A stretch of DNA of 64,000 bases from Polaromonas jejuensis NBRC 106434. GTDB lineage: Bacteria; Pseudomonadota; Gammaproteobacteria; Burkholderiales; Burkholderiaceae_C. Below are positions 2,129-28,218 of this stretch, piece after piece (the first letter of the stretch is position 1; each line of letters starts with the position of its first letter). The notes under the pieces were generated by a model. The model was not told the origin of the DNA. It saw only the letters and a program-made list of their open reading frames with translations, and searched no databases. The stretch covers positions 1 to 64,000 of the forward strand of contig NZ_BCYO01000018.1 of assembly GCF_001598235.1 (NCBI RefSeq), in the 5' to 3' direction. Made by a program: the position numbers and the translations under genes.

Positions 2129-3648
2129 GCCCGGGTTTTGGCAGCAGGCTTGCTTTTCCGGGCGGGCCTGGACGTGGATGGCGCCTTCGCGGAAGCGCTC
2201 GCCGGTACCTGGCCCAGCAAATAATCCACCAGCAAAGGCACGGGGCGGCCCGTTGCGCCCTTGGCAGCCCCGCCTTTCCAGGCCGTGCCGGCAATATCCA
2301 GATGCGCCCACGGGAAGCTCGCCGTAAAACGCTGCAGGAACTTGGCCGCAGTGACCGCGCCACCCGCCCGCCCCGCCACATTCGCAACGTCGGCAAAATT
2401 GGTTTTCAGCCCTTCGGCGTAATCTTCATCCAGCGGCATTCTCCAGCACAGATCCAGGGAGGACTCACCGGCCTCGGCCAAGGACTGGGCCAGTGAGTCA
2501 TTATTTGAAAAGAGGCCGCTGCGCACCCCGCCAAGCGCCACCACGCAGGCACCGGTGAGCGTGGCAATGTCAACCACCGCACTGGGCTTGAAGCGCTCGG
2601 CATAAGTCAAGGCATCGCACAACACCAGCCGCCCTTCGGCATCCGTGTTCAGGATTTCAATGGTTTGCCCGCTCATGCTGGTCACCACATCACCTGGCTT
2701 GATGGCACTGCTGCTTGGCATGTTTTCGCAGGCGGGGATCAGCCCAACGACATTCAGCGCCGGCTGCAGATCGGCCAGCGCCCGGAAAGTCCCCAGCACG
2801 CTCGCGGCTCCGCACATGTCAAACTTCATCTCGTCCATTTCGCCCGCAGGCTTGATCGAGATCCCTCCCGTGTCAAAGGTGATGCCTTTACCGACCAGCA
2901 CCACGGGCGCCGCGGCCTTGGCCGCGCCGTCATAGCGCAGCACGATAAAGCGCAAAGGCTCTGCCGAACCTTGGGCCACGGCCATGAAGGAGCCCATGCC
3001 GAGTTTGGCCACCTCTTTGGGACCGAGTACTTCGACCTTGATTTTGGAAAACTTGGCCAAAGCCTTGGCCGCTCCCGCCAGCAAGTTGGGGGTGGCATAG
3101 TTGGCCGGCCGGTTAGCCCATTCCTTGGCATATTCAATGCCCTTGACCAACGCCGTGCCTTTATCGAAGCCCGGCTTGACGGCGGCCGTATTGCTGACCT
3201 CGATCACGATCTGCTGAAGTTTTGCCGGAGTGGCTTTTGACTTGGTGGTCGTATAGCTGTAGGCGGCTTCGCTGCAAGCCACCACGGCGGCATGCACCGC
3301 ATCGGCCTGGAGATCACTCAGCGCGCTGAGGCTGATAACCACGCGCCGGACATTGCTGGTCTTCAAGGTGCCCAACGCGGCATTCACCGCGGTACGAACA
3401 TTTTTCGGACTGCCGTCATCCGCCCCCACCAGCAGAACCCGGGTTGCCGCGATGCCCGCCGTGCGATAAGCACCGAGCAGCTTGCCCGGCTTGGTTTCAA
3501 GATCGCCAGACTTGATGGCCAGCGCAGCCAGTGCCGACAAGGGGTCGTCACCGGAAGAACTCAAGTCCTGGGGTATGAGTACCAGCAGGGCATCACATTT
3601 TTCGCTGCAAAGGCGGGCACGGGTCAGTGTTTTGAGTTCAAAGTCCAT
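2125..3648 (-). CDS. pepA: Leucyl aminopeptidase (M17)
   Basis: Cytosolic manganese/zinc-dependent leucine aminopeptidase, 507 residues. The M17 signature NTDAEGRL is present near residue 335, with metal-binding residues in the preceding KGITFDTGGISIKP segment around 250. The N-terminal macro-like domain and C-terminal catalytic domain are both complete. The last ~25 residues are Ala/Ser/Lys-rich and not part of the fold. It is the first gene of a pepA-holC-unknown operon and is divergent from lptF, from which it is separated by 58 bases; this arrangement is common in proteobacteria. E. coli PepA also acts as a DNA-binding regulator; whether that applies here is unknown. Confidence 0.96.
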   Translation of the reverse strand: MDFELKTLTRARLCSEKCDALLVLIPQDLSSSGDDPLSALAALAIKSGDLETKPGKLLGAYRTAGIAATRVLLVGADDGSPKNVRTAVNAALGTLKTSNVRRVVISLSALSDLQADAVHAAVVACSEAAYSYTTTKSKATPAKLQQIVIEVSNTAAVKPGFDKGTALVKGIEYAKEWANRPANYATPNLLAGAAKALAKFSKIKVEVLGPKEVAKLGMGSFMAVAQGSAEPLRFIVLRYDGAAKAAAPVVLVGKGITFDTGGISIKPAGEMDEMKFDMCGAASVLGTFRALADLQPALNVVGLIPACENMPSSSAIKPGDVVTSMSGQTIEILNTDAEGRLVLCDALTYAERFKPSAVVDIATLTGACVVALGGVRSGLFSNNDSLAQSLAEAGESSLDLCWRMPLDEDYAEGLKTNFADVANVAGRAGGAVTAAKFLQRFTASFPWAHLDIAGTAWKGGAAKGATGRPVPLLVDYLLGQVPASASAKAPSTSRPARKSKPAAKTRA

Positions 3649-3706: not shown

Positions 3707-4831
3707 ATGTTATTCCAATCTTCGATTCGCAAAGAGTTGGCACGCAGTTTCGGGGCGACGCTGGTGGTGCTGGTCACCATCGTGATGACCATCGTGTTGA
3801 TCCGCACGCTGGGCCAGGCCTCGCGCGGCTCCATCAGCCCACAGGATGTCATGCTCTTCATGGCATTTTCCGCACTCGGCCGCCTGCCAACCATACTGAC
3901 CCTGTCTCTCTTCATTGCCATGGTCAGCACTTTGTCGCGCATGTACCGCGACAGTGAAATGGTGGTCTGGTTCACCAGCGGCCAGGGACTGACCGGCTTT
4001 TTGAGGCCGCTGTTTCGGTTTGCCTGGCCCGTTCTGCTGGTCATCACCCTGATGGCGCTTTTTGTCTGGCCCTGGGCCAACCAGCAAACCAAGGACATGC
4101 AAAGCCGCTATGAACAACGCGGCGACCTGGACCGGGTGGCGCCCGGTCAGTTTCAGGAGTCCTCCGGTGGCAACCGCGTGTTTTTCATTGACCGCGATCT
4201 GGCCGGCGGGCAAGCCAGCAACAACGTGTTTATTGCGGCGACGGAGAAAGGCAAAAACTCCGTCACCACGGCACGCTCGGGCCGCGTGGAGACCCAGGGA
4301 GACACGCAATTCGTGATGCTGTCCAATGGACAACGGCTTGAAAACGTGATCGGGCAATCCGCCCTCAAAATCAGCGATTTTGAAGAGTACGGCACCAAAA
4401 CCGGCAGCTCGGGCAGCCTCAGCGAAAGCGAGCCGGAAGCCAAACTGCTGTCCACGCGTGCCCTGGCCAAGGTCCCCACGCGAAGCAATCTCAGTGAATT
4501 GGCATGGCGGGTGGGGCTGGCCCTGTCAGCCATCAACTTCGTGATTCTGGCGGTGGCGCTGGCCAGTGTGAATCCGCGTGGCGGGCGCAGCGGCAACATG
4601 ATTTTTGTGCTGCTGACCTTTGTGGTTTACAACAACCTGCTGAATCTGGGGCAGAGCTGGATTTTCGTGGGGCTGATCAGCTTCAGCAACTTCCTGCTGG
4701 CGCTGCATGGGGGCGTCCTGCTGCTGGGCCTGGGATGGCTGCTCAAGCGGCAATACAACTGGGTTTTCAGGCCGGCGGCACGCCTGCACCGCCCGCCGCC
4801 TGACGTGCGCGTACACGGGAGCCCCTCATGA
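3707..4831 (+). CDS. lptF: LPS export ABC transporter permease LptF
   Basis: Inner-membrane permease (374 residues) that with LptG and LptB extracts lipopolysaccharide from the inner membrane and passes it to LptC/LptA. The ATG at 3707 begins MLFQSSIRKELARSFGATLV, the standard LptF start; the frame extends upstream into the pepA region but that part is not protein-like. Three N-terminal membrane segments, a periplasmic beta-jellyroll domain (about residues 120-260) and three C-terminal membrane segments match the family. The stop overlaps the lptG start (ATGA). Confidence 0.95.
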   Translation: MLFQSSIRKELARSFGATLVVLVTIVMTIVLIRTLGQASRGSISPQDVMLFMAFSALGRLPTILTLSLFIAMVSTLSRMYRDSEMVVWFTSGQGLTGFLRPLFRFAWPVLLVITLMALFVWPWANQQTKDMQSRYEQRGDLDRVAPGQFQESSGGNRVFFIDRDLAGGQASNNVFIAATEKGKNSVTTARSGRVETQGDTQFVMLSNGQRLENVIGQSALKISDFEEYGTKTGSSGSLSESEPEAKLLSTRALAKVPTRSNLSELAWRVGLALSAINFVILAVALASVNPRGGRSGNMIFVLLTFVVYNNLLNLGQSWIFVGLISFSNFLLALHGGVLLLGLGWLLKRQYNWVFRPAARLHRPPPDVRVHGSPS

Positions 4832-5967
4832 AAACGATACGCCGCCTGATTTACGGCGAGGTGTTGGCCTCCATCGCGCTGGTTGCGCTGGGTTTTCTCG
4901 CCCTGTTTTTCTTTTTTGACTTCGTCGATGAGTTGCAGTATCTGGGCAAAAACAATGGCCTCAGCGCTGCTGCCGATGTCTACCAGATCCGGCATGCCCT
5001 GCTGTATGTGGCTTTGCTGGTACCCAACCACCTGTATGAACTCCTGCCCATCTCGGTGCTGATAGGCACCGTTTTTGTCATGGCCCGGCTGGCCCAAAGT
5101 TCCGAATACACGATTTTGCGCACCAGCGGACTGGGCCCCTGGCGGGCGCTCAAGCTGCTGCTGGCGCTGGGCGCTTTATTTGTGGTGCTTAGCTTTGCGG
5201 TGGGCGATTACCTGGCGCCTGTCAGTGAGCGCACCGCGCAACTCCTCAAGGCGCGCTACCAGGGCAAGATCACCATCGGACAGACGGGGGCCTGGCTGAA
5301 GGAAAAGCAGGCCGACAACAGCTTCGTGGTCAACGTCAAAACACTGTCATCCGGCAATGAAATGCATGACGTGCAGATTTTCGAATTCAACAACAAGGGC
5401 TTGATCGTTTCCACCACCGAGGCGCCGGTCGCGGTATTTTCCGCCGACGGCGCCTGGCTGCTTCAGCAGGCCCAGCGCGCGGAGTTTGCAGTCCCGACTG
5501 GTTTTGGTGGCAAATCTGAACAGGTGGCCAGGGTCAGGCGCGCCACCGTGGACGGCTTTCGCTGGCCCACCGAAATCAGCGCGGAAATGGTGTCGGTGGC
5601 GCTGCTCAAACCCGACCGCATGGCCACCATCGACCTCTTCAATTACATCCGCCATCTGGACGCCAATGGCCAAACCGCGCAGCGCTATGAAATCGAGTTC
5701 TGGAAAAAGGTGTTTTACCCGCTCAGCTGCCTGGTCATGGTGATGCTCGCCCTGCCCTTTGCCTACCTTCATTTCCGCTCTGGCGGTATTTCGGCCTATG
5801 TTTTTGCGGGCGTGATGATAGGTATCAGCTTCTTCCTGCTCAACAACGTGTTCGGCTACATCGGCAATCTGCGCAACTGGCAACCCTGGCTGGCGGCCGC
5901 CACACCGGGCCTGCTGTACATGGCCGTTTCGCTGGGCGCGTTTGGCTGGCTGGTCTTCAAGCGCTGA
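4828..5967 (+). CDS. lptG: LPS export ABC transporter permease LptG
   Basis: Second permease of the LptB2FG complex, 379 residues, the usual length. It has N-terminal membrane segments (LIYGEVLASIALVALGFLAL), a periplasmic domain and C-terminal membrane segments ending GAFGWLVFKR. It starts within the last codons of lptF, so the two partners are made in a coupled way. No terminator is seen before the cbiX-like gene 43 bases downstream. Confidence 0.95.
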   Translation: MKTIRRLIYGEVLASIALVALGFLALFFFFDFVDELQYLGKNNGLSAAADVYQIRHALLYVALLVPNHLYELLPISVLIGTVFVMARLAQSSEYTILRTSGLGPWRALKLLLALGALFVVLSFAVGDYLAPVSERTAQLLKARYQGKITIGQTGAWLKEKQADNSFVVNVKTLSSGNEMHDVQIFEFNNKGLIVSTTEAPVAVFSADGAWLLQQAQRAEFAVPTGFGGKSEQVARVRRATVDGFRWPTEISAEMVSVALLKPDRMATIDLFNYIRHLDANGQTAQRYEIEFWKKVFYPLSCLVMVMLALPFAYLHFRSGGISAYVFAGVMIGISFFLLNNVFGYIGNLRNWQPWLAAATPGLLYMAVSLGAFGWLVFKR

Positions 5968-21329: not shown

Positions 21330-22742
21330 TCAGGCAAAAAAGCCGTGCAAATACCAGGCGTGGCCGGCACCCGCCTGCGGCGCCCTTACCGATGTCTGCG
21401 ACGTCACGGACTTGACTGACAGGCGCTCGCGGTAAATCCACAGCAGGCCGGCCTGCTGGCTGCGGTAAATAAAGTAGTCACGAATGGCGGCGGGCCTGGC
21501 GCCAGCCTGGTCCGCCGACGCGAGCCAGCCCGTCACCTCCAGGCGCTGCGGCCCGGCCAGCCGCAGCAGCCGGCCCTGGTAGACCGGGCTGTCGCCCACC
21601 GTCTGCAAGCGCAGCGGCTCGGGCAGCAGCCAGCTCGGGTACAGGGCTTCATGTTTGATGTCATTTTGGCCTGTAGCCCTTTCAGGATGGGCGCTACCAG
21701 CTATCAACTTAAGAGCACCTTGCGCGCTGATCCAGCGCTGCATCTGCTCGGGCCGGTGGTCGGCACAGGGCTGCCAGGCTTGCACCTGCGCCTCACCCAG
21801 GCGTGCGCTCAAGCGTTCTATCAGCTCCACCGCACTGTCACCCTGCTGCCTCGCCTCCATCAGCAGGCTGCCGGTGGCGGCGGCTGAATCGAGCAGCTTT
21901 TCGGTTTCAAGCGACTGCAGGCTCAAGGCATGGACCGGGGCCGGCAAACGCTGCTGCGCCAGATGTTCGGCGATCAGGCGCGCCACATGGCGCAAATCCT
22001 GGGCGGGCTGGGCCGTGCGTATCAGCAGCTCGCCGGTGGGCGCGACATCGCGCCGCTTGTCCAGGTGCCAGACCAGCTTCAAGGCGCTGAGCCCGCTTTG
22101 GCGGCCCAGCAGCCAGGCCTGCAAATGCAGCAGCAACCGCTCGACCCCGGCCATGAGCGCCGGCGCATGGATGATCAGCGCATCCAGTTCCAGCTTTTCA
22201 TCGAAACACTCGGGCAGCAGCAGCCATTCGTAGCTATCTGGCACCTGACCGCGCGCGCGGTCCAGCGCCTGCAGCAGCGGTGCGCCAAAGCGCCTGGCCA
22301 CGCCGTCGCGCGGCAGGCGCAGCAGGTCGTCCCAGCTGCGGCAGCCGATACGTTCGAGCACGCCCAGGTGCGGGCGCGCGGCGCTGAGGGTGTTCATGGG
22401 CAGGTCGGCCACGCGCTTTCCCACGATGCCCGCAGCACGCAGTCGCAAGCGCCCAAGCGCTATTAAAGATGTAGCACCTTGCGCCCGGCTGATCTGGGCT
22501 GGCAGCTGATTTGACTCAAAAAACTGCGCCGCACGCCGCTCCAGCAGCTGCGCCAGCCGGCTCAGGCCGCCAAACAGGCGCAGGCTGCCGGCCACCTCCA
22601 TCAGCACGGCTTCGTCGACCAGGGCCACACGCGGCGTCAAGCCCAGCGCCAGGCTGGCCAGCGCCCGCTGCGCTGCCGCCGCGTCCATGGGCGCCGGTCC
22701 GGGCTCAGTGGGAATGCAGGCTTGCAGTGCGATCCAGCGCAT
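21330..22742 (-). CDS. imuB: Y-family polymerase-like protein ImuB
   Basis: A 470-residue ImuB, the non-catalytic Y-family hub of the ImuA-ImuB-DnaE2 mutasome that links DnaE2 to the beta clamp. The start MRWIALQACIPTEPGPAP lacks the N-terminal catalytic Asp of active Y-family polymerases, as known for ImuB. The start at 22742 has GAGAGG six bases upstream and overlaps the end of imuA by 38 bases; the longer upstream frame is Cys/Trp/Arg-rich shadow sequence. Two stretches (about residues 86-101 and 345-363) coincide with copies of the short dispersed repeat. Confidence 0.93.
   Translation of the reverse strand: MRWIALQACIPTEPGPAPMDAAAAQRALASLALGLTPRVALVDEAVLMEVAGSLRLFGGLSRLAQLLERRAAQFFESNQLPAQISRAQGATSLIALGRLRLRAAGIVGKRVADLPMNTLSAARPHLGVLERIGCRSWDDLLRLPRDGVARRFGAPLLQALDRARGQVPDSYEWLLLPECFDEKLELDALIIHAPALMAGVERLLLHLQAWLLGRQSGLSALKLVWHLDKRRDVAPTGELLIRTAQPAQDLRHVARLIAEHLAQQRLPAPVHALSLQSLETEKLLDSAAATGSLLMEARQQGDSAVELIERLSARLGEAQVQAWQPCADHRPEQMQRWISAQGALKLIAGSAHPERATGQNDIKHEALYPSWLLPEPLRLQTVGDSPVYQGRLLRLAGPQRLEVTGWLASADQAGARPAAIRDYFIYRSQQAGLLWIYRERLSVKSVTSQTSVRAPQAGAGHAWYLHGFFA
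21656..21710. repeat. Short ATAGCT-type repeat inside imuB (second)
   Basis: On the minus strand: GATAGCTGGTAGCGCCCATC, then AAAGGGCTACAGGCCAAAAT. It is the best match in the window to the intergenic consensus and encodes the LIAGSAHPERATGQNDI segment of ImuB. Confidence 0.6.
22441..22485. repeat. Short ATAGCT-type repeat inside imuB (first)
   Basis: On the minus strand: GGTGCTACATCTTTAATAGC, then GCTTGGGCGCTTGCGACT. This is a shorter and weaker member of the family, encoding GATSLIALGRLRL of ImuB. Confidence 0.45.
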
Positions 22743-23508
22743 GGTGGACCTCTCGCGTTGAAACCGAAGAAAACACCGCCGCCAGCGGCAAGGCGCCGGC
22801 CTCTTCGCGCTGACGCCGCACGCGCTCCCGGCTGGCCGCCAGCAGCGCCGCCAGTCGGGCCGGACGGGTGTCCAGCAGCACCGGCAAAGCCAGCGGCGGG
22901 CCCCGGCGCTTGAGCACATGGAGCAACAGATTGCCAGCCTCACCCTCCGTGCCTTCGAGCAGCAAACGCAGCGGCGCGGGCGACGACTCCTGCTGGGCAC
23001 TGAGGGCGCGAAACACAAACAGCAGCTTGTGGTGCGCCTGGGCGGCCATCTGCAGGCGGCGCAAATGGGCACTGCGAACCTCGGGCAGCCAGGCCAGCAC
23101 GGCGGCCACGTCGGCACACTGCAAGGCTTCGCGCGTGGCCCAGAGCAGCGCAGGCCCATCCCCTCCTTTGGCCTGCACCAACAGCAGGCGCTGCATGTTG
23201 AGCTGGCGCGCGCCCAGCGCCGGGCCAAAAGGCAGGTAAGGCGCGCCCACCAGCACCACCAGTTGGTCAGGCGACGCAAGCTGCGTGGCTGCCAGCGCCG
23301 GCGCGATCAAACCCCACTCATGCAGGCCGGCTTGCGGCTGCAGCACCTCAATCAACGCCCCCTGCGGCCAGCCGCCACCGGGCAACACATCGTTGAGCGC
23401 CGCGTAACCCGTGTCCACCGTCTGCAGGCTTGTACTGCCCAGCTCACCCGCGCGCCAGACATGCGCAAGGTCCGGCAAGGCTCGGTTCACAGGAATCGGG
23501 GAAAGCAT
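22705..23508 (-). CDS. imuA: SOS mutasome protein ImuA
   Basis: A 267-residue RecA/SulA-like protein that is the first gene of the imuA-imuB-dnaE2 damage-inducible mutagenesis operon. The N-terminal part LPGGGWPQGALIEVL (about residues 43-57) corresponds to the RecA-like P-loop region. The C-terminal tail mediates contact with RecA and ImuB in characterised systems. A LexA box lies 39 bases upstream of the start. Confidence 0.9.
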   Translation of the reverse strand: MLSPIPVNRALPDLAHVWRAGELGSTSLQTVDTGYAALNDVLPGGGWPQGALIEVLQPQAGLHEWGLIAPALAATQLASPDQLVVLVGAPYLPFGPALGARQLNMQRLLLVQAKGGDGPALLWATREALQCADVAAVLAWLPEVRSAHLRRLQMAAQAHHKLLFVFRALSAQQESSPAPLRLLLEGTEGEAGNLLLHVLKRRGPPLALPVLLDTRPARLAALLAASRERVRRQREEAGALPLAAVFSSVSTREVHHALDRTASLHSH

Positions 23509-23530
23509 GGGGTGGGCTCAATCGGGTAAA

Positions 23531-23554
23531 ACATCCAGTCAAATAACTGGATGT
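23531..23554. promoter_or_regulatory. 9-bp perfect inverted repeat overlapping the LexA box
   Basis: ACATCCAGT, six bases, ACTGGATGT. The right arm is shared with the LexA box that follows. It could form a leader hairpin or be a second operator half. Confidence 0.45.
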
Positions 23555-23562
23555 AAACACAG
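23547..23562 (-). promoter_or_regulatory. LexA (SOS) box of imuA-imuB-dnaE2
   Basis: CTGGATGTAAACACAG fits CTG-N10-CAG with the outer TA bases of the gamma/beta-proteobacterial consensus CTGT-N8-ACAG (one mismatch, G for T). It lies upstream of imuA, the expected place for SOS control of this operon. Confidence 0.75.
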
Positions 23563-23652
23563 TATATTGCCTGATTCAAGCCCGTGCAATGACCCCTTCG
23601 CCCCGCTCGGGCGTGCGCCGCCCTCCCCCTTCAAGGGACTGATTTCATTGGG

Positions 23653-23692
23653 AAAAAAGAAAAAGCGCCAGGGTGCAGCCAACCCGGCGCTT
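23653..23692 (-). terminator. Rho-independent terminator after dsbB
   Basis: On the minus strand AAGCGCCGGGTT, short loop, ACCCTGGCGCTT, then a long T-rich run. It lies 18 bases beyond the dsbB stop. Confidence 0.8.
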
Positions 23693-23710
23693 GATGAGAA
23701 AGCGTTGCGC

Positions 23711-24217
23711 TCAGCGCTGGCGTGTCAGCCGGGCGATCAGGACCAGCCCCACGAGACCAATCGCCACAAAGCACAGGAAAGACCAGTTGGCGATCGAGCC
23801 GCCCAGAAAGGTCCAGTCGATCTTGGTGCAGTCGCCGCTGCCCTTGAAGATCATGGGGATGGCGCGCTTGAGCGGAAAGGTTTCGATCATTCCGTAAAAG
23901 TCGCGGCCACAAGAAGCCACTTCAGGCGGATACCACTGCAAAAAGCTCTGGCGCGCCGCCACGAAAGCGCCAAAGCCGGCCATCAGCACCAGCAGACTCG
24001 AACCCGTGATCAGCACGCCTTTGCTCCTGGCCAAGGCGGTGATGCCCGCCACAATCGCCACCAGCAGCAGCGCATAACGCTGCACGATGCACATGGGGCA
24101 AGGCTCCAGGCCCACCACATGCTGCAAGTACAAGCCAAAAGCCAGCATGGCCACACAGGCCAGAGACACCAGCGCCAGCACGCGGCGCGGCACGGCATCG
24201 AAATAAGTCAAAAACAT
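23711..24217 (-). CDS. dsbB: Disulfide bond formation protein DsbB
   Basis: A 168-residue inner-membrane quinone reductase that reoxidises DsbA. Four membrane helices are visible. The first redox pair is CPMC in GLEPCPMCIVQRY (about residue 40), and the second pair is the Cys in VASCGRDFYG and GSGDCTKIDW. The start ATG at 24217 has AAGGA six bases upstream; an ATG two codons earlier (24223) has its GG directly against it and is less likely. A terminator follows. Confidence 0.93.
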   Translation of the reverse strand: MFLTYFDAVPRRVLALVSLACVAMLAFGLYLQHVVGLEPCPMCIVQRYALLLVAIVAGITALARSKGVLITGSSLLVLMAGFGAFVAARQSFLQWYPPEVASCGRDFYGMIETFPLKRAIPMIFKGSGDCTKIDWTFLGGSIANWSFLCFVAIGLVGLVLIARLTRQR

Positions 24218-24223
24218 CGTCAT

Positions 24224-24590
24224 CCTTTTATCAAACCTCCATCAAGATTGTGCGATGGTTCGTGAGTTTAGATGGCGAGAAGTTCCCGGGTGGGACGAAC
24301 GGATTGATGCAAGCACCCTGGTCAGCCAACTTGTGCACGCCTCTTTTTGCAAAAGGCGCATGTTGTGAAGAGGCATCAAGCCAGGTCAAAGGATGAAAAC
24401 CACGCACCGAATGGTCGGTTTTGGCCCTTTTTCAGGCATAGTGCCTGCTGGCGAAGACGTCTCGCAACTTACCCAGCAAGGGGAAGCGCGAAAAACACTG
24501 GGCGGTGACTTTGGCAAAACCAATAGACCGTCGCATTCATGCAGAACAGCGATCTAACCCCATGACAGCAAACAGTTTTCTCGAATTCTG
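24224..24590. other. Non-coding stretch between dsbB and the integron-like site
   Basis: About 370 bases without a convincing gene. An integron integrase gene would be expected here on the minus strand, but none of the three minus-strand frames shows tyrosine recombinase motifs over a useful length. One frame contains a short protein-like run (FAKVTAQCFSRFPLLGKLRD) that I cannot place. Confidence 0.5.
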
Positions 24591-24656
24591 CGCGCCGTGT
24601 TATTCCGCAACGCGCCATGTTATTCCGCAGTTTTGCGGGATATATCAAAGTTAGGC
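24591..24656 (+). promoter_or_regulatory. attI-like recombination site
   Basis: Two tandem 20-base units (24591-24610 and 24611-24630) differ at two positions, each containing TGTTATTCCGCA. They are followed at 24647 by AAAGTTAGGC, whose G-TTAGGC is the integron crossover consensus GTTRRRY. Class 1 attI has the same order: two TGTTA-containing direct repeats about 20 bases apart, then AAAGTTAGGC about 30 bases on. This is pattern similarity and has not been tested. Confidence 0.5.
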
Positions 24657-24684
24657 ACCCTAAAACACGCACTTCGGAGGATCG

Positions 24685-25317
24685 ATGCTCACAACACGCT
24701 ACATGGTCAGCAACAAGAATCTGCCATCGATCTTCCAAAAGATCATCGACGGCGCTGCGCCCGACAAGTTCACCATGGCGCATCTAAAGGGCATCGGATT
24801 CACGAGCAGCAACGATCAAGCAGCACTACCCGTGCTCAAGGACCTTAAATTTCTCGCTGCAGACGGATCCCCTACGAAGCGCTACCACCAGTATCGCGAC
24901 AAGTCTCAATCCCGACGCGTACTCGGCGAAGCGATTCGAGAAACGTACGAAGATCTCTTTCACATCAACGAGCATCCTTCGGAGGCCGATCGCCAGGCCG
25001 TCATTGGACGCTTCAAGTCCACGCACAACGTCACTGACCTTGTCGCGGAGCGCCAGGCTGCTACCTTCTTTGCGCTACTGAAGCTCGCAGACCTCAGCTC
25101 ATCGGCAAGGCACACATCCAAGGCGGCCGAAGCCGCCATACCTCCGGCCCCGACGGTACCCGAGCCCAGTCCTCCGAAGGCGCAGCGCTCGCTCGAACTG
25201 CCGCACGGCTTCAGCGGCCTTCGCTACAACATTGAAGTGCATCTACCTGCGACGAAGGACATAGAGGTCTACAACGCGATCTTCAAGTCCCTGCGGGAGC
25301 ATCTTCTCAATGATTGA
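24685..25317 (+). CDS. DUF5343 family protein
   Basis: A 210-residue protein with GGAGG four bases before the ATG. Residues about 1-125 resemble DUF5343: LPSIFQKIIDGAAPDKFT, LKGIGFTSSNDQAALPVLK and DGSPTKRYHQYRD read like a winged-helix fold. A Pro/Ala linker (about 145-165) leads to a C-terminal segment, FSGLRYNIEVHLPATKDIEV, seen at the end of several DUF5343 proteins. Function unknown. The stop overlaps the start of the HEPN gene by eight bases, so the two proteins are probably made together. It may regulate or neutralise the HEPN protein; this is inference. Confidence 0.75.
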   Translation: MLTTRYMVSNKNLPSIFQKIIDGAAPDKFTMAHLKGIGFTSSNDQAALPVLKDLKFLAADGSPTKRYHQYRDKSQSRRVLGEAIRETYEDLFHINEHPSEADRQAVIGRFKSTHNVTDLVAERQAATFFALLKLADLSSSARHTSKAAEAAIPPAPTVPEPSPPKAQRSLELPHGFSGLRYNIEVHLPATKDIEVYNAIFKSLREHLLND

Positions 25318-25897
25318 CTCTCGCGACCTCCGCGACTGGCTATTCCGTGGATTGATGTTTGAGGCGGAGGCTGATCGATTCAGACTGGCCGGAATCCGTG
25401 TCGGTGCCGACACGGAGGCATCGGAACGGACGCTCTTTGCCGATCAACTAGCGCCCTTTGGAGTGGACCTGCGGGGTGAAGCGTTGAGAATGGCACGGCT
25501 TTATGCCCTGCTGTATTGCTTCGAGAACTCCGTACGAGAACTGGTGACTCAGCGACTTCGAGAGCGTCACGGAGAGGATTGGTGGACGCAGAAGGTTCCT
25601 CGAAAGGTTCAGGAGTTCGCGACCACGAGGCAGAAGGATGCGAAGGACAACTCTTGGCTAGAGGGACATACCAAGGACCCGCTGAGCTTTGTTCAATTCG
25701 GCCACTTGTCGGACATCATCATTGCGAATTGGGACGACTTCTCCGATCTGATCAGTTCGCAGCACTGGTTGAAGCAGCGTTTGGATGAACTTGAACGCGC
25801 GAGAAACTTCATTGCGCACAACCGCTATTTGCTCCCAGCAGAGTTCCAGCGTATTGAGATGTATGTGAATGACTGGAATCGAATGGTCGGCTTGTAG
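25310..25897 (+). CDS. Swt1-type HEPN domain protein, putative RNase
   Basis: A 195-residue all-helical protein. The segment LLYCFENSVRELVTQRLRER (about residues 67-86) and the motif Arg165-Asn-Phe-Ile-Ala-His170 near the C-terminus fit the HEPN superfamily RxxxxH (often RNxxxH) catalytic signature; the pattern is closest to the Swt1-like HEPN group. Many HEPN proteins are metal-independent ribonucleases in toxin-antitoxin and anti-phage systems. It overlaps the DUF5343 gene, and its stop lies directly at the attC-like half-site. Codon use (CGA, TCG, CTA present) and lower GC differ from the neighbours and suggest transfer. RNase activity is inferred. Confidence 0.75.
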   Translation: MIDSRDLRDWLFRGLMFEAEADRFRLAGIRVGADTEASERTLFADQLAPFGVDLRGEALRMARLYALLYCFENSVRELVTQRLRERHGEDWWTQKVPRKVQEFATTRQKDAKDNSWLEGHTKDPLSFVQFGHLSDIIIANWDDFSDLISSQHWLKQRLDELERARNFIAHNRYLLPAEFQRIEMYVNDWNRMVGL

Positions 25898-25907
25898 GGT
25901 GCCTAAC
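25895..25907 (+). repeat. attC-like half-site, right arm of the 13-bp inverted repeat
   Basis: TAGGGTGCCTAAC. GCCTAAC followed by CCCTCG is the usual start of a cassette attC site (R'' box, spacer, start of L''). The remaining attC stem and closing GTTRRRY are absent. Confidence 0.5.
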
Positions 25908-25928
25908 CCCTCGTATATGGACTCCCCC

Positions 25929-26141
25929 TCAACAGCAGCGCCCCACCCGTCCCTTGTCGCCGTAGCGCGCTTCCTGGCGTTCGCGGAAGAAGGCCTCGTA
26001 GCTCATCACCGGCTGGTCCGGGTGCTCGCGGCGCTGGTGCGCCACATAGGTGCCGTAGTTGGGCACGCCGACCATCAGCCGGGCGGTCTGGCCCAGGTAG
26101 CTGCCGACAGATTGGCCGAGGCTGGCTATTTCTTTCAGCAT
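25929..26141 (-). CDS. ybdD: YbdD/YjiX family protein
   Basis: A 70-residue protein of the YbdD/YjiX family, the constant small companion of CstA/BtsT carbon-starvation transporters. The block VGVPNYGTYVAHQRREHPDQ followed by FFRERQEARYG and a C-terminal CC pair is diagnostic. It follows cstA by seven bases on the same strand. Its last codons are intact, so the neighbouring island stopped just outside this gene. Confidence 0.9.
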   Translation of the reverse strand: MLKEIASLGQSVGSYLGQTARLMVGVPNYGTYVAHQRREHPDQPVMSYEAFFRERQEARYGDKGRVGRCC

Positions 26142-26148
26142 AGCGGCC

Positions 26149-28218
26149 TCAGGCGGTAAGCAAGGGGCCGCCGGCCTCCTGTACCGTCGGCTTGTGGCTG
26201 CGCCGGGCCACCAGGCAGGCGCGGATGCCGAACACCAGCACGCTGAGCACCACAAACATGAAGAACACGCACAGGCCGGCATCCAGGTAGTCGTTGAAGA
26301 CGATGCGCTGCATCTGGCCCAGGGCCTTGGCGGGCGCCAGCAGCTCACCCTTGTCCAGGGCAGCCTGGTATTTGTGGGCGTGGGCCAGGAAGCCGATCTT
26401 CGGGTTCTCGTGGAACACCTTCTGCCAGCCGGCCGTCATGGTGCAGGCCAGCAACCAGGCGGTGGGCAACAGCGTCACCCAGGCGAAGCGCTCGCGCTTC
26501 ATCTTGAACAGCACCACGGTGCCCAGGACCAGCGCCACGCTGGCCAGCATCTGGTTGGAGATGCCGAACAGCGGCCACAGCGTGTTGATGCCGCCCAGCG
26601 GATCGACCACGCCCTGGTACAGGAAGTAGCCCCAGGCCGCCACGCACAGGCCGGTGGCCAGGCCGTTGCTGATCCATGAATCGGTGCGCTTGAGCGCCGG
26701 CACGAAGGTGCCCAGCAAATCCTGCAGCATGAAGCGGCCGGCGCGGGTGCCGGCGTCCACCGCGGTCAGGATGAACAAGGCCTCGAACAGGATGGCGAAG
26801 TGGTACCAGAAGCCCATCATGGCCTTGCCGCCCAGCATCTGCGAGAAGATTTGCGCCATGCCCACGGCCAGCGTGGGCGCGCCACCGGCGCGGGCGATGA
26901 TGGTGTGCTCGCCCACGTCCTTGGCGGTCTGCAGCAGCATGTCGGGAGTCACCACAAAGCCCCATTGCGAGATGACCTGCGCGGCGCTTTCGGCCGTCGG
27001 GCCAAGCACGGCCAGCGGACTGTTCATGGCGAAGTACACGCCGGGCTCGATGATGGACGCGGCCACCAGCGCCATGATGGCGACGAAGGATTCCATCAGC
27101 ATCGCGCCGTAGCCGATGAAGCGGGCGTGGCTCTCGTTCTCGATCAGCTTCGGCGTGGTGCCGGAGGAGATCAGCGCATGGAAGCCCGACACCGCGCCGC
27201 AGGCGATGGTGATGAACAGGAAGGGAAACAGGCCGCCGGCCCACACCGGGCCGCTGCCGTCGATGAAGCGCGTGGTGGAGGGCATCTTCAGGTCCGGCGC
27301 CACCAGCACGATACCGATGGCCAGCGCCACGATGGCGCCGATCTTCAGGAAGGTCGACAGGTAGTCGCGCGGCGCCAGCAGCAGCCACACCGGCAGTACG
27401 GAGGCGATGAAGCCGTAGCCGATCAGCATCCAGGTCAGCTGCTTGCCGTCAAAGGTGAACAGCGGCGCCCACTCGGCGCTCTGCGCCACCTGGCCGCCCA
27501 TGACGATGGAGAGGATGAGGAACACCACGCCGATCACCGACACCTCGCCGATGCGCCCCGGGCGGATGTAGCGGGTGTAGACGCCCATAAACAGCGCCAG
27601 CGGAATGGTGGCCGCCACGGTGAACGTGCCCCAGGGGCTGTCGGCCAGCGCCTTGACCACGATCAGCGCCAGCACCGCCAGGATGATGACCATGATCATG
27701 AAGGTGCCGAACAAGGCGATCACGCCGGGTATCGGCCCGAGTTCGGACTTGATCAGGTCGCCCAGCGAGCGGCCGTCGCGCCGGGTGGAAATGAACAGCA
27801 CGATGAAGTCCTGCACCGCCCCGGCAAACACCACGCCGGCCAGTATCCACAGCATGCCCGGCAGGTAGCCCATCTGCGCGGCCAGCACCGGACCGACCAA
27901 TGGACCGGCACCGGCAATCGCCGCAAAGTGGTGGCCGAACAGCACAAACTTGTTGGTCGGCACATAGTCCAGCCCGTCGTTGTGGCGCATCGCTGGCGTG
28001 GCGCGCTTCGCGTCCAGCGACAGCACATGCCTGGCGATGAACTGGCTGTAGAAGCGGTAGGCGATCAGGTAGACCGCCAGCGCCGCCACCACCACCCACA
28101 GGGCGTTGACGGTTTCGCCGCGGTGCAATGCGATGGTGGCCAGGGCGCCAGCGCCGCCGAGGGCGATCAGCGCCCACAGGGCCGTGCGGGCCAGGGGGTT
28201 TTTGGTGAAGGTGTCCAT
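26149..28218 (-). CDS. cstA: Carbon starvation protein CstA (pyruvate/peptide transporter)
   Basis: A 689-residue membrane protein with about 18 hydrophobic segments. The N-terminal FGHHFAAIAGAGPLVGPVLA and GGAPTLAVGMAQIFSQMLGG blocks identify CstA/BtsT. In E. coli this family imports pyruvate (BtsT, CstA), and peptides have also been proposed. The ATG at 28218 with AAGAGA upstream gives the canonical start MDTFTKNPLARTALWALIAL. It forms an operon with ybdD and is divergent from a histidine kinase gene only 127 bases away. Confidence 0.94.
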   Translation of the reverse strand: MDTFTKNPLARTALWALIALGGAGALATIALHRGETVNALWVVVAALAVYLIAYRFYSQFIARHVLSLDAKRATPAMRHNDGLDYVPTNKFVLFGHHFAAIAGAGPLVGPVLAAQMGYLPGMLWILAGVVFAGAVQDFIVLFISTRRDGRSLGDLIKSELGPIPGVIALFGTFMIMVIILAVLALIVVKALADSPWGTFTVAATIPLALFMGVYTRYIRPGRIGEVSVIGVVFLILSIVMGGQVAQSAEWAPLFTFDGKQLTWMLIGYGFIASVLPVWLLLAPRDYLSTFLKIGAIVALAIGIVLVAPDLKMPSTTRFIDGSGPVWAGGLFPFLFITIACGAVSGFHALISSGTTPKLIENESHARFIGYGAMLMESFVAIMALVAASIIEPGVYFAMNSPLAVLGPTAESAAQVISQWGFVVTPDMLLQTAKDVGEHTIIARAGGAPTLAVGMAQIFSQMLGGKAMMGFWYHFAILFEALFILTAVDAGTRAGRFMLQDLLGTFVPALKRTDSWISNGLATGLCVAAWGYFLYQGVVDPLGGINTLWPLFGISNQMLASVALVLGTVVLFKMKRERFAWVTLLPTAWLLACTMTAGWQKVFHENPKIGFLAHAHKYQAALDKGELLAPAKALGQMQRIVFNDYLDAGLCVFFMFVVLSVLVFGIRACLVARRSHKPTVQEAGGPLLTA

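Follow-up and report, generated by a model that had tools for sequence, protein, structure and literature searches.

The window considered here, by which is meant the whole stretch of 64,000 nucleotides of Polaromonas jejuensis NBRC 106434 that was analysed, contains two overlapping genes on its forward strand that had been picked out, from the letters alone, as a two-gene module of a DUF5343 protein and a Swt1-type HEPN protein; both halves of that description hold. Gene A (24685–25317) encodes a DUF5343 protein of 210 residues (PF17278, E 1e-41; 143 bits against a Pfam cut-off of 27), and gene B (25310–25897) encodes a Swt1-type HEPN protein of 195 residues (PF18731, HEPN_Swt1, E 5.7e-12; 46.4 bits against a cut-off of 27.5), for which Pfam also returns a second match, to the SAV2148-like HEPN family, at 33.8 bits (cut-off 26.4). 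An ORF check of the window found both reading frames intact and overlapping by eight bases, as had been noted; the RNFIAH motif is where it was said to be, at residues 165–170 of B (R165-N-F-I-A-H170), and a ribosome-binding-like GGAGG stands ahead of A. That the pair lies on an island of lower GC content was also borne out, its value of 0.559 (against 0.634 for the whole window) being one that only 1.8% of 628 windows of equal size are as low as. Rfam gave no matches on the window, and NCBIfam gave none for either A or B.

When the two proteins are compared with the profiles of PADLOC-DB, A matches PDC-M34A (245.7 bits, E 1.4e-73, over positions 3–207 of a profile of 208) and B matches PDC-M34B (E 7.8e-71, over positions 3–191 of 192). 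On the strength of these profile matches the pair is a member of PDC-M34, a two-gene phage-defence candidate that was already present in PADLOC-DB 2023 (2.0.0), and which it resembles in both genes, in their order, in their length and in being matched over the whole of each profile; there is no difference in the genes. The idea that this might be an unlisted system was ruled out, since PADLOC has both of its genes as PDC-M34. The original prediction had added that no function was known to have been described for such a pair, and this stands in so far as a full-text search of 5.39 million open papers found none for either 'DUF5343' or 'PDC-M34'. Its conserved two-gene unit, its HEPN motif and its cassette-like carriage are supported, its HEPN fold moderately so, and its designation of the pair as a toxin-antitoxin or defence candidate was sound. 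What the library entry as displayed does not state is carriage by an integron, and it is the carrier that is the new part: to judge from the flanking sequence, the pair is carried as an integron gene cassette in an integron relic that has no integrase.

The cassette and its attachment sites

The term 'cassette-like' had been used of this locus, and it proves to be literally right. The pair is bracketed by a 16-nt inverted repeat, the two arms of which, GTTAGGCACCCTAAAA (24650–24665) and TTGTAGGGTGCCTAAC (25892–25907), are 94% complementary and contain integron R' and R'' cores, all on the forward strand. The R' core, GTTAGGC at 24650–24656, fits GTTRRRY and marks the junction of attI and cassette; the R'' core, GCCTAAC at 25901–25907, fits RYYYAAC and is the start of an attC, the rest of which is missing. 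Between them these define a gene cassette at 24651–25907. A complete attC is absent from its 3' end, which retains no more of one than the R'' core with a handful of bases, and a fold-based scan found none in the window, so that the cassette is to be regarded as a truncated one.

Ahead of the junction lies an attI-type site (24510–24650, with its core at 24611–24655, forward strand). A homologous segment is present in at least 12 of the 61 genomes of the genus (four candidates having been scored per genome), and those of G073, with 43 of the 46 core bases, and of G012, with 35, stand immediately next to a complete integron integrase gene, intI, which is the reason for calling it an attI-type site. 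The assignment depends mainly on these two genomes, because among the eight fetched loci having an integrase over the cut-off only three reached 26 or more bases of the 46-base core; in the pattern search for this core, reversed-pattern controls gave hits in 4 of 15 genomes, and rows with three mismatches were discarded. An integrase over the cut-off is present in 8 of the 61 genus genomes. None was found in the P. jejuensis genome, where the best candidate is a tail fragment (G000:C1:518309–518533) scoring 100.9 bits against the 265 of the cut-off, and a search of positions 22001–28000 with six IntI proteins (E 0.01) found no integrase gene or remnant beside the attI of the window; two other loci, L054 and L065, do carry an integrase remnant beside their attI-type sites.

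The genes to either side we take to be dsbB and ybdD. An attI-type site beside dsbB is common only to one other genome, G067 (33 of 46 core bases); at 28 further dsbB loci (L025–L052) the best core match was 26 of 46, as against 25 in 30 shuffles, the contig ending short of the place in at least one of them (L035). The dsbB-side site of G067, L056 (G067:C1:2474500–2479000), has a pair of consecutive attI-like segments, together with two small genes and an end that resembles that of an insertion sequence. Rfam, run on four loci, returned a tRNA together with two rows far below their gathering scores.

As to what became of the attC, positions 25913–25937 appear to be an end remnant, about 25 nt long, of an insertion sequence of the IS110/IS1111 type. 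The next gene, presumably ybdD-like (25929–26141, reverse strand), has its stop codon inside this remnant. Many other places have the sequence behind GCCTAAC following an R''-like box, and a reading of it as a conserved 3' part of the integron was ruled out by one of these, L159 (G000:C14), at which it is the end of an IS110-family element: a transposase gene of the IS110 family (Transposase_20, 1e-27; DEDD_Tnp_IS110, 1.2e-9) lies there about 220 nt upstream of it, and the end is placed after TCTAACA. Targeting of attC by the IS1111 family was reportedly described by Tetu and Holmes in 2008 and by Post and Hall in 2009. L159 is like such cases in having an IS110-family transposase and an element end just after R'', whereas the window retains only the 25 nt or so of the end. 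Since the end in L159 belongs to an element with a transposase gene, and since IS1111-family elements that target attC are known (see the excerpted text of PMC11187229), the attC of the window cassette was most likely split by an IS1111-type element, of which about 25 bases would be left, now joined to the 3' terminus of the gene that follows. At another locus, L071 (G024:C9, 1900–2540), there are four copies of an end of IS110/IS1111 type, three of which are repeated in tandem, in units of 152 bp, behind the end of a cassette.

Conservation and spread of the pair

The co-occurrence of DUF5343 and Swt1-type HEPN genes, which the original prediction had taken as the thing to look for, was found from both sides. 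In a search of genome contigs with B, A was found beside it in 11 of 12 loci, the twelfth contig beginning inside B (at L014, A matches over residues 123–208 only). With the PDC-M34B profile, 369 genomes of the class gave seven hits including that in the genome of origin, and A adjoins B in five of the six others, the sixth hit being a larger, different HEPN protein. With the PDC-M34A profile, 398 genomes of the phylum gave nine hits, again including the genome of origin, and B lies beside A in five of the eight others (by tblastn). In the remaining three (G415, G119, in which A is split in two frames, and G286) the gene after A encodes another protein, of about 170 residues; such a swap of partner behind DUF5343 can be seen at L174, L176 and L177. 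One of these alternative partners was scanned, giving DUF4145 below the cut-off (E 0.0021, 18.5 bits against 23.1), and no clear Rx4-6H motif was seen in it by eye; DUF4145 is itself a HEPN family according to the excerpted text of PMC3710099. The A proteins that have the alternative partner end in a motif related to the conserved C-terminal motif of A.

Among 61 relatives (the genome of origin included) A is present in that genome only, so that the system must be called patchy. The hosts of the loci are as diverse as Acidovorax, Lysobacter, Bradyrhizobium and a Verrucomicrobiales MAG, and despite this broad range the distances of A and of B are correlated (r 0.965, for 55 pairs from 11 loci), which argues that the two genes move together. 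Their overlap is 8 or 11 bases in 7 of 10 loci and, in the other three, varies with the start codon chosen. No number is given for dN/dS, as dS is saturated.

Searches of phage records found no match for A or for B. Plasmids gave B in two records, at below 60% identity, and no A; viral contigs gave B over 40 residues in one locus and no A, nor was any A found in the B-matched viral locus at E < 0.6. Of 10 neighbouring proteins of other copies of the pair that were submitted to PADLOC, eight had no match, one at L003 matched PDC-S01 and one at L005 weakly matched LmuB; with eight of the ten unmatched, support for a defence island is thin. At L185 (2049–3011) a protein labelled by eye as TIR-like lies directly downstream of the DUF5343/HEPN pair.

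A second case of integron carriage is found at L005 (Betaproteobacteria bacterium UBA5582), where a pair having 60% and 72% identity to that of the window lies between attC sites at 4248–4316 and 5585–5654. Unlike the attC of the window these are complete, and, with z values of -4.3 and -3.0, their bottom strands fold better than all of 200 shuffles; on the opposite strand, at 2808–3473, is an integrase-like gene that, at 221 aa, is apparently incomplete. A strict attC scan missed these sites and a looser, fold-based scan found them, although the latter also misses sites, for example one seen by eye in L054 (the fold of which is no better than that of 12 of 200 shuffles). That same scan, with its known misses, found no attC flanking the pair in L003, L004, L006–L014 or L170–L175; most copies of the pair seem to live outside integrons. 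By sequence, there are now two distinct places (the window and L005) to which PDC-M34 has been carried in the form of an integron cassette, and these two cases add to the reports of integrons stocking anti-phage genes. Cassettes holding anti-phage systems are reported in the excerpted text of PMC12444791, and those that it cites from Vibrio and from mobile integrons are like the window in that a candidate defence gene is the cassette; the window differs in having a single cassette, at an integrase-less attI and with a broken attC, and no long array.

The two proteins and a possible mode of action

In B the residues R165, N166 and H170 do not vary across the alignment of homologues (11 of 11), and the Rx4-6H motif is present. 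Its AlphaFold2 model has a mean pLDDT of 75.8, with block means of 76–96 over residues 61–190 and of less than 58 over residues 1–50. When this model was compared with Foldseek's candidates using VIA-align, the top row was the C-terminal region of AbiA (Z 7.6, rmsd 3.6, 114 aligned), and others near the top were the C-terminal domain of yeast Swt1 (Z 7.3, rmsd 2.6, 105 aligned), the AbiF dimer (Z 7.3, rmsd 3.8, 134 aligned) and HepT (Z 6.6, rmsd 3.5, 113 aligned), all of these values being below a Z of 8 and hence in a range that can be due to chance for helical bundles. The nine best rows we nevertheless take to belong to a single superfamily, that of the HEPN proteins. Foldseek alone found no PDB match to the model under E 0.001 (best E 0.75), and so the predicted HEPN fold finds support in the best VIA-align rows (Z 6.6–7.6) but not in Foldseek by itself; structure comparison may be said to group B moderately with HEPN proteins. 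A sequence search of the PDB with profiles of A and B gave four matches and one match, with best E values of 0.35 and 0.28 respectively.

Two known groups invite comparison. With the Abi2/Swt1 HEPN group (PMC3710099) B shares its match to HEPN_Swt1, the Rx4-6H motif and the presence of AbiF and Swt1 among its best structural rows; the architectures given for that group in the excerpted part of the source are fusions or restriction-modification neighbours, DUF5343 not being named there, and an 'Integron cassette HEPN' family (PDB 3jrt) is also given. HepT-MntA (HEPN/MNT) is like the window pair in having a small HEPN protein, a predicted RNase, with a partner gene, and differs in the nature of that partner; membership of this system was ruled out, since A matches DUF5343 alone in Pfam up to E 10 and has no match to the MNT nucleotidyltransferase.

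The model of A (mean pLDDT 73.8) has a disordered region at residues 140–175 and a C-terminal helix at 193–208; the pLDDT of this linker is below 50, and behind it is a conserved tail, 14 of the 37 positions of A that are invariant in the alignment of homologues falling within residues 181–207. Foldseek alone found no match to the model under E 0.001. The best rows from VIA-align are a winged-helix repressor (Z 4.7, over 59 residues) and then the winged-helix domains of helicases, with the DNA-recognition domain of BpuJI also among the best (Z 4.2 over 132 residues). The description of A as winged-helix-like is thus weakly supported: winged-helix proteins are indeed among the best rows, but with a Z of 4.7 at most the reading is a lead and not a result.

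The most likely role of B is that of a HEPN endoribonuclease by which the cell would be arrested, with A as its putative keeper and sensor. A fuller proposal, to which we give somewhat better than an even chance, is that a PDC-M34 HEPN pair was captured as a single cassette, and that A holds the RNase B until infection releases it. The cassette would have been loaded at attI by an integron integrase, and may now be fixed there, its attC having been broken by an insertion sequence and no integrase gene being left at its side. A single transcript, begun upstream in the platform of the integron, would serve for both proteins, and the gene overlap suggests that their translation is coupled. A would restrain B by way of the strand-helix motif conserved at its C terminus, which is borne on the disordered linker, and its N-terminal part would sense some signal of infection, perhaps a nucleic acid; B, once freed, would dimerise and cut RNA, and the infected cell would stop growing. 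What the sequence itself shows is the presence of both genes and the way in which they overlap, the conserved motif of B, their co-occurrence, the junction of attI with the cassette and the shortened attC; the mechanism is a proposal. Weighing against it are the lack of a Foldseek match for B and the Z values below 8, the weak winged-helix reading of A, the three A hits with another partner, the thin defence-island support, the missing promoter-like site and the fact that the fold-based scan placed attC sites around the pair in L005 alone.

If instead the pair were a type II toxin-antitoxin system, A would be an autorepressing antitoxin, with a DNA-binding front and a toxin-binding tail, and B an RNase toxin, the whole serving to stabilise the element and not to counter phage. 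The order of A then B with an overlap would suit this, as would the structure of A, since many antitoxins are likewise laid out with a folded front followed by a disordered linker and then a conserved tail. It is the leader that makes this reading rather unlikely. Only 28 nt separate the recombination core from the start codon of A, leaving hardly any possibility of a promoter within the cassette, and a consensus scan found no promoter-like site in 24224–25960, the platform side included; in contrast, integron toxin-antitoxin cassettes are described as having promoters of their own (PMC11023631). Ordinary integron cassettes, for their part, depend on the promoter of the platform (PMC11014356). 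Infection-triggered defence is favoured over plain addiction on account of the short leader and this comparison of promoters, which tip the balance towards a platform-expressed defence cassette without settling the matter.

The lack of a promoter-like site could equally be expected of a silent, decaying passenger, its genes stranded with neither promoter nor integrase and doing nothing in the host. Such a reading would also accommodate the absence of an integrase, both beside the pair and (over the cut-off) in the genome, and the attC broken by an insertion-sequence remnant, but we consider it improbable given that both frames are intact, that the conserved residues are kept and that GGAGG stands ahead of A. 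Much the same low probability attaches to the view that B, a HEPN protein with A as its adaptor, serves to bind or process RNA in host RNA metabolism rather than in conflict. There is a precedent for this in eukaryotic Swt1, a protein of nuclear RNA surveillance whose HEPN domains, as described in PMC3710099, sense RNA and are inactive, but a catalytic-type motif invariant in 11 of 11 homologues, a patchy spread (9 of 398 genomes and 7 of 369, with the genome of origin alone among 61 relatives) and carriage by integrons in the window and at L005 all speak against it. As a defence candidate, PDC-M34 now has a clearly testable form, namely a two-gene cassette of 1.2 kb with one predicted catalytic histidine.

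Related sites across the genus

Attachment sites of the attI type that lack an integrase are found at four orthologous loci in the genus (L058–L062; L054, L055, L065 and L067; L066 and L068; L069 and L070), with 13 occupied sites in all. Both flanks of these are 82–96% identical between species, and the cassettes differ in length and in sequence; when 16 first-cassette stretches of 420 nt (one from the window, two from other sites and the rest from the 13 sites at the four loci) were compared by blastn and tblastx, none resembled another at E 0.001. At one of these loci two genomes, G026 (L066) and G075 (L068), are without the same stretch of about 1.1 kb, which in G073 bears intI (L158, about 1193–2331, in reverse orientation). 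The gap has an identical left edge in both, and right edges 8 bases apart, yet the cassettes are different. With the same stretch lacking in both, the flanks conserved and the cassettes nevertheless different, exchange of cassettes by an integrase from elsewhere is suggested, although the different cassettes may instead be leftovers of longer ancestral arrays after loss of different members.

A wider picture can be put forward tentatively, as one that we think may well not be correct: that the genus holds scattered, integrase-less attI docking sites each loaded in trans with a cassette or two that can be exchanged, several such cassettes carrying HEPN or nuclease genes, the DUF5343/HEPN pair being the load of the dsbB-side site. 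Among the paper titles listed, none concerns dispersed attI sites, and if the picture is true, such sites with their species-specific cassettes would make the in-trans loading of chromosomal integron sites directly testable. Ten cassette proteins gave, in Pfam, one match each to HEPN, DUF4145, an Mrr nuclease and a tautomerase, with one to HNH below the cut-off and five having none; these were picked by eye, so that their make-up is no measure of enrichment. Motifs resembling RN..xH were noticed by eye in cassette proteins encoded at L159 (1011–1709) and L160 (1777–2427) and by a 310-aa ORF in L065, each lacking a Pfam match, and it is possible that these are HEPN-type proteins as yet unlisted.
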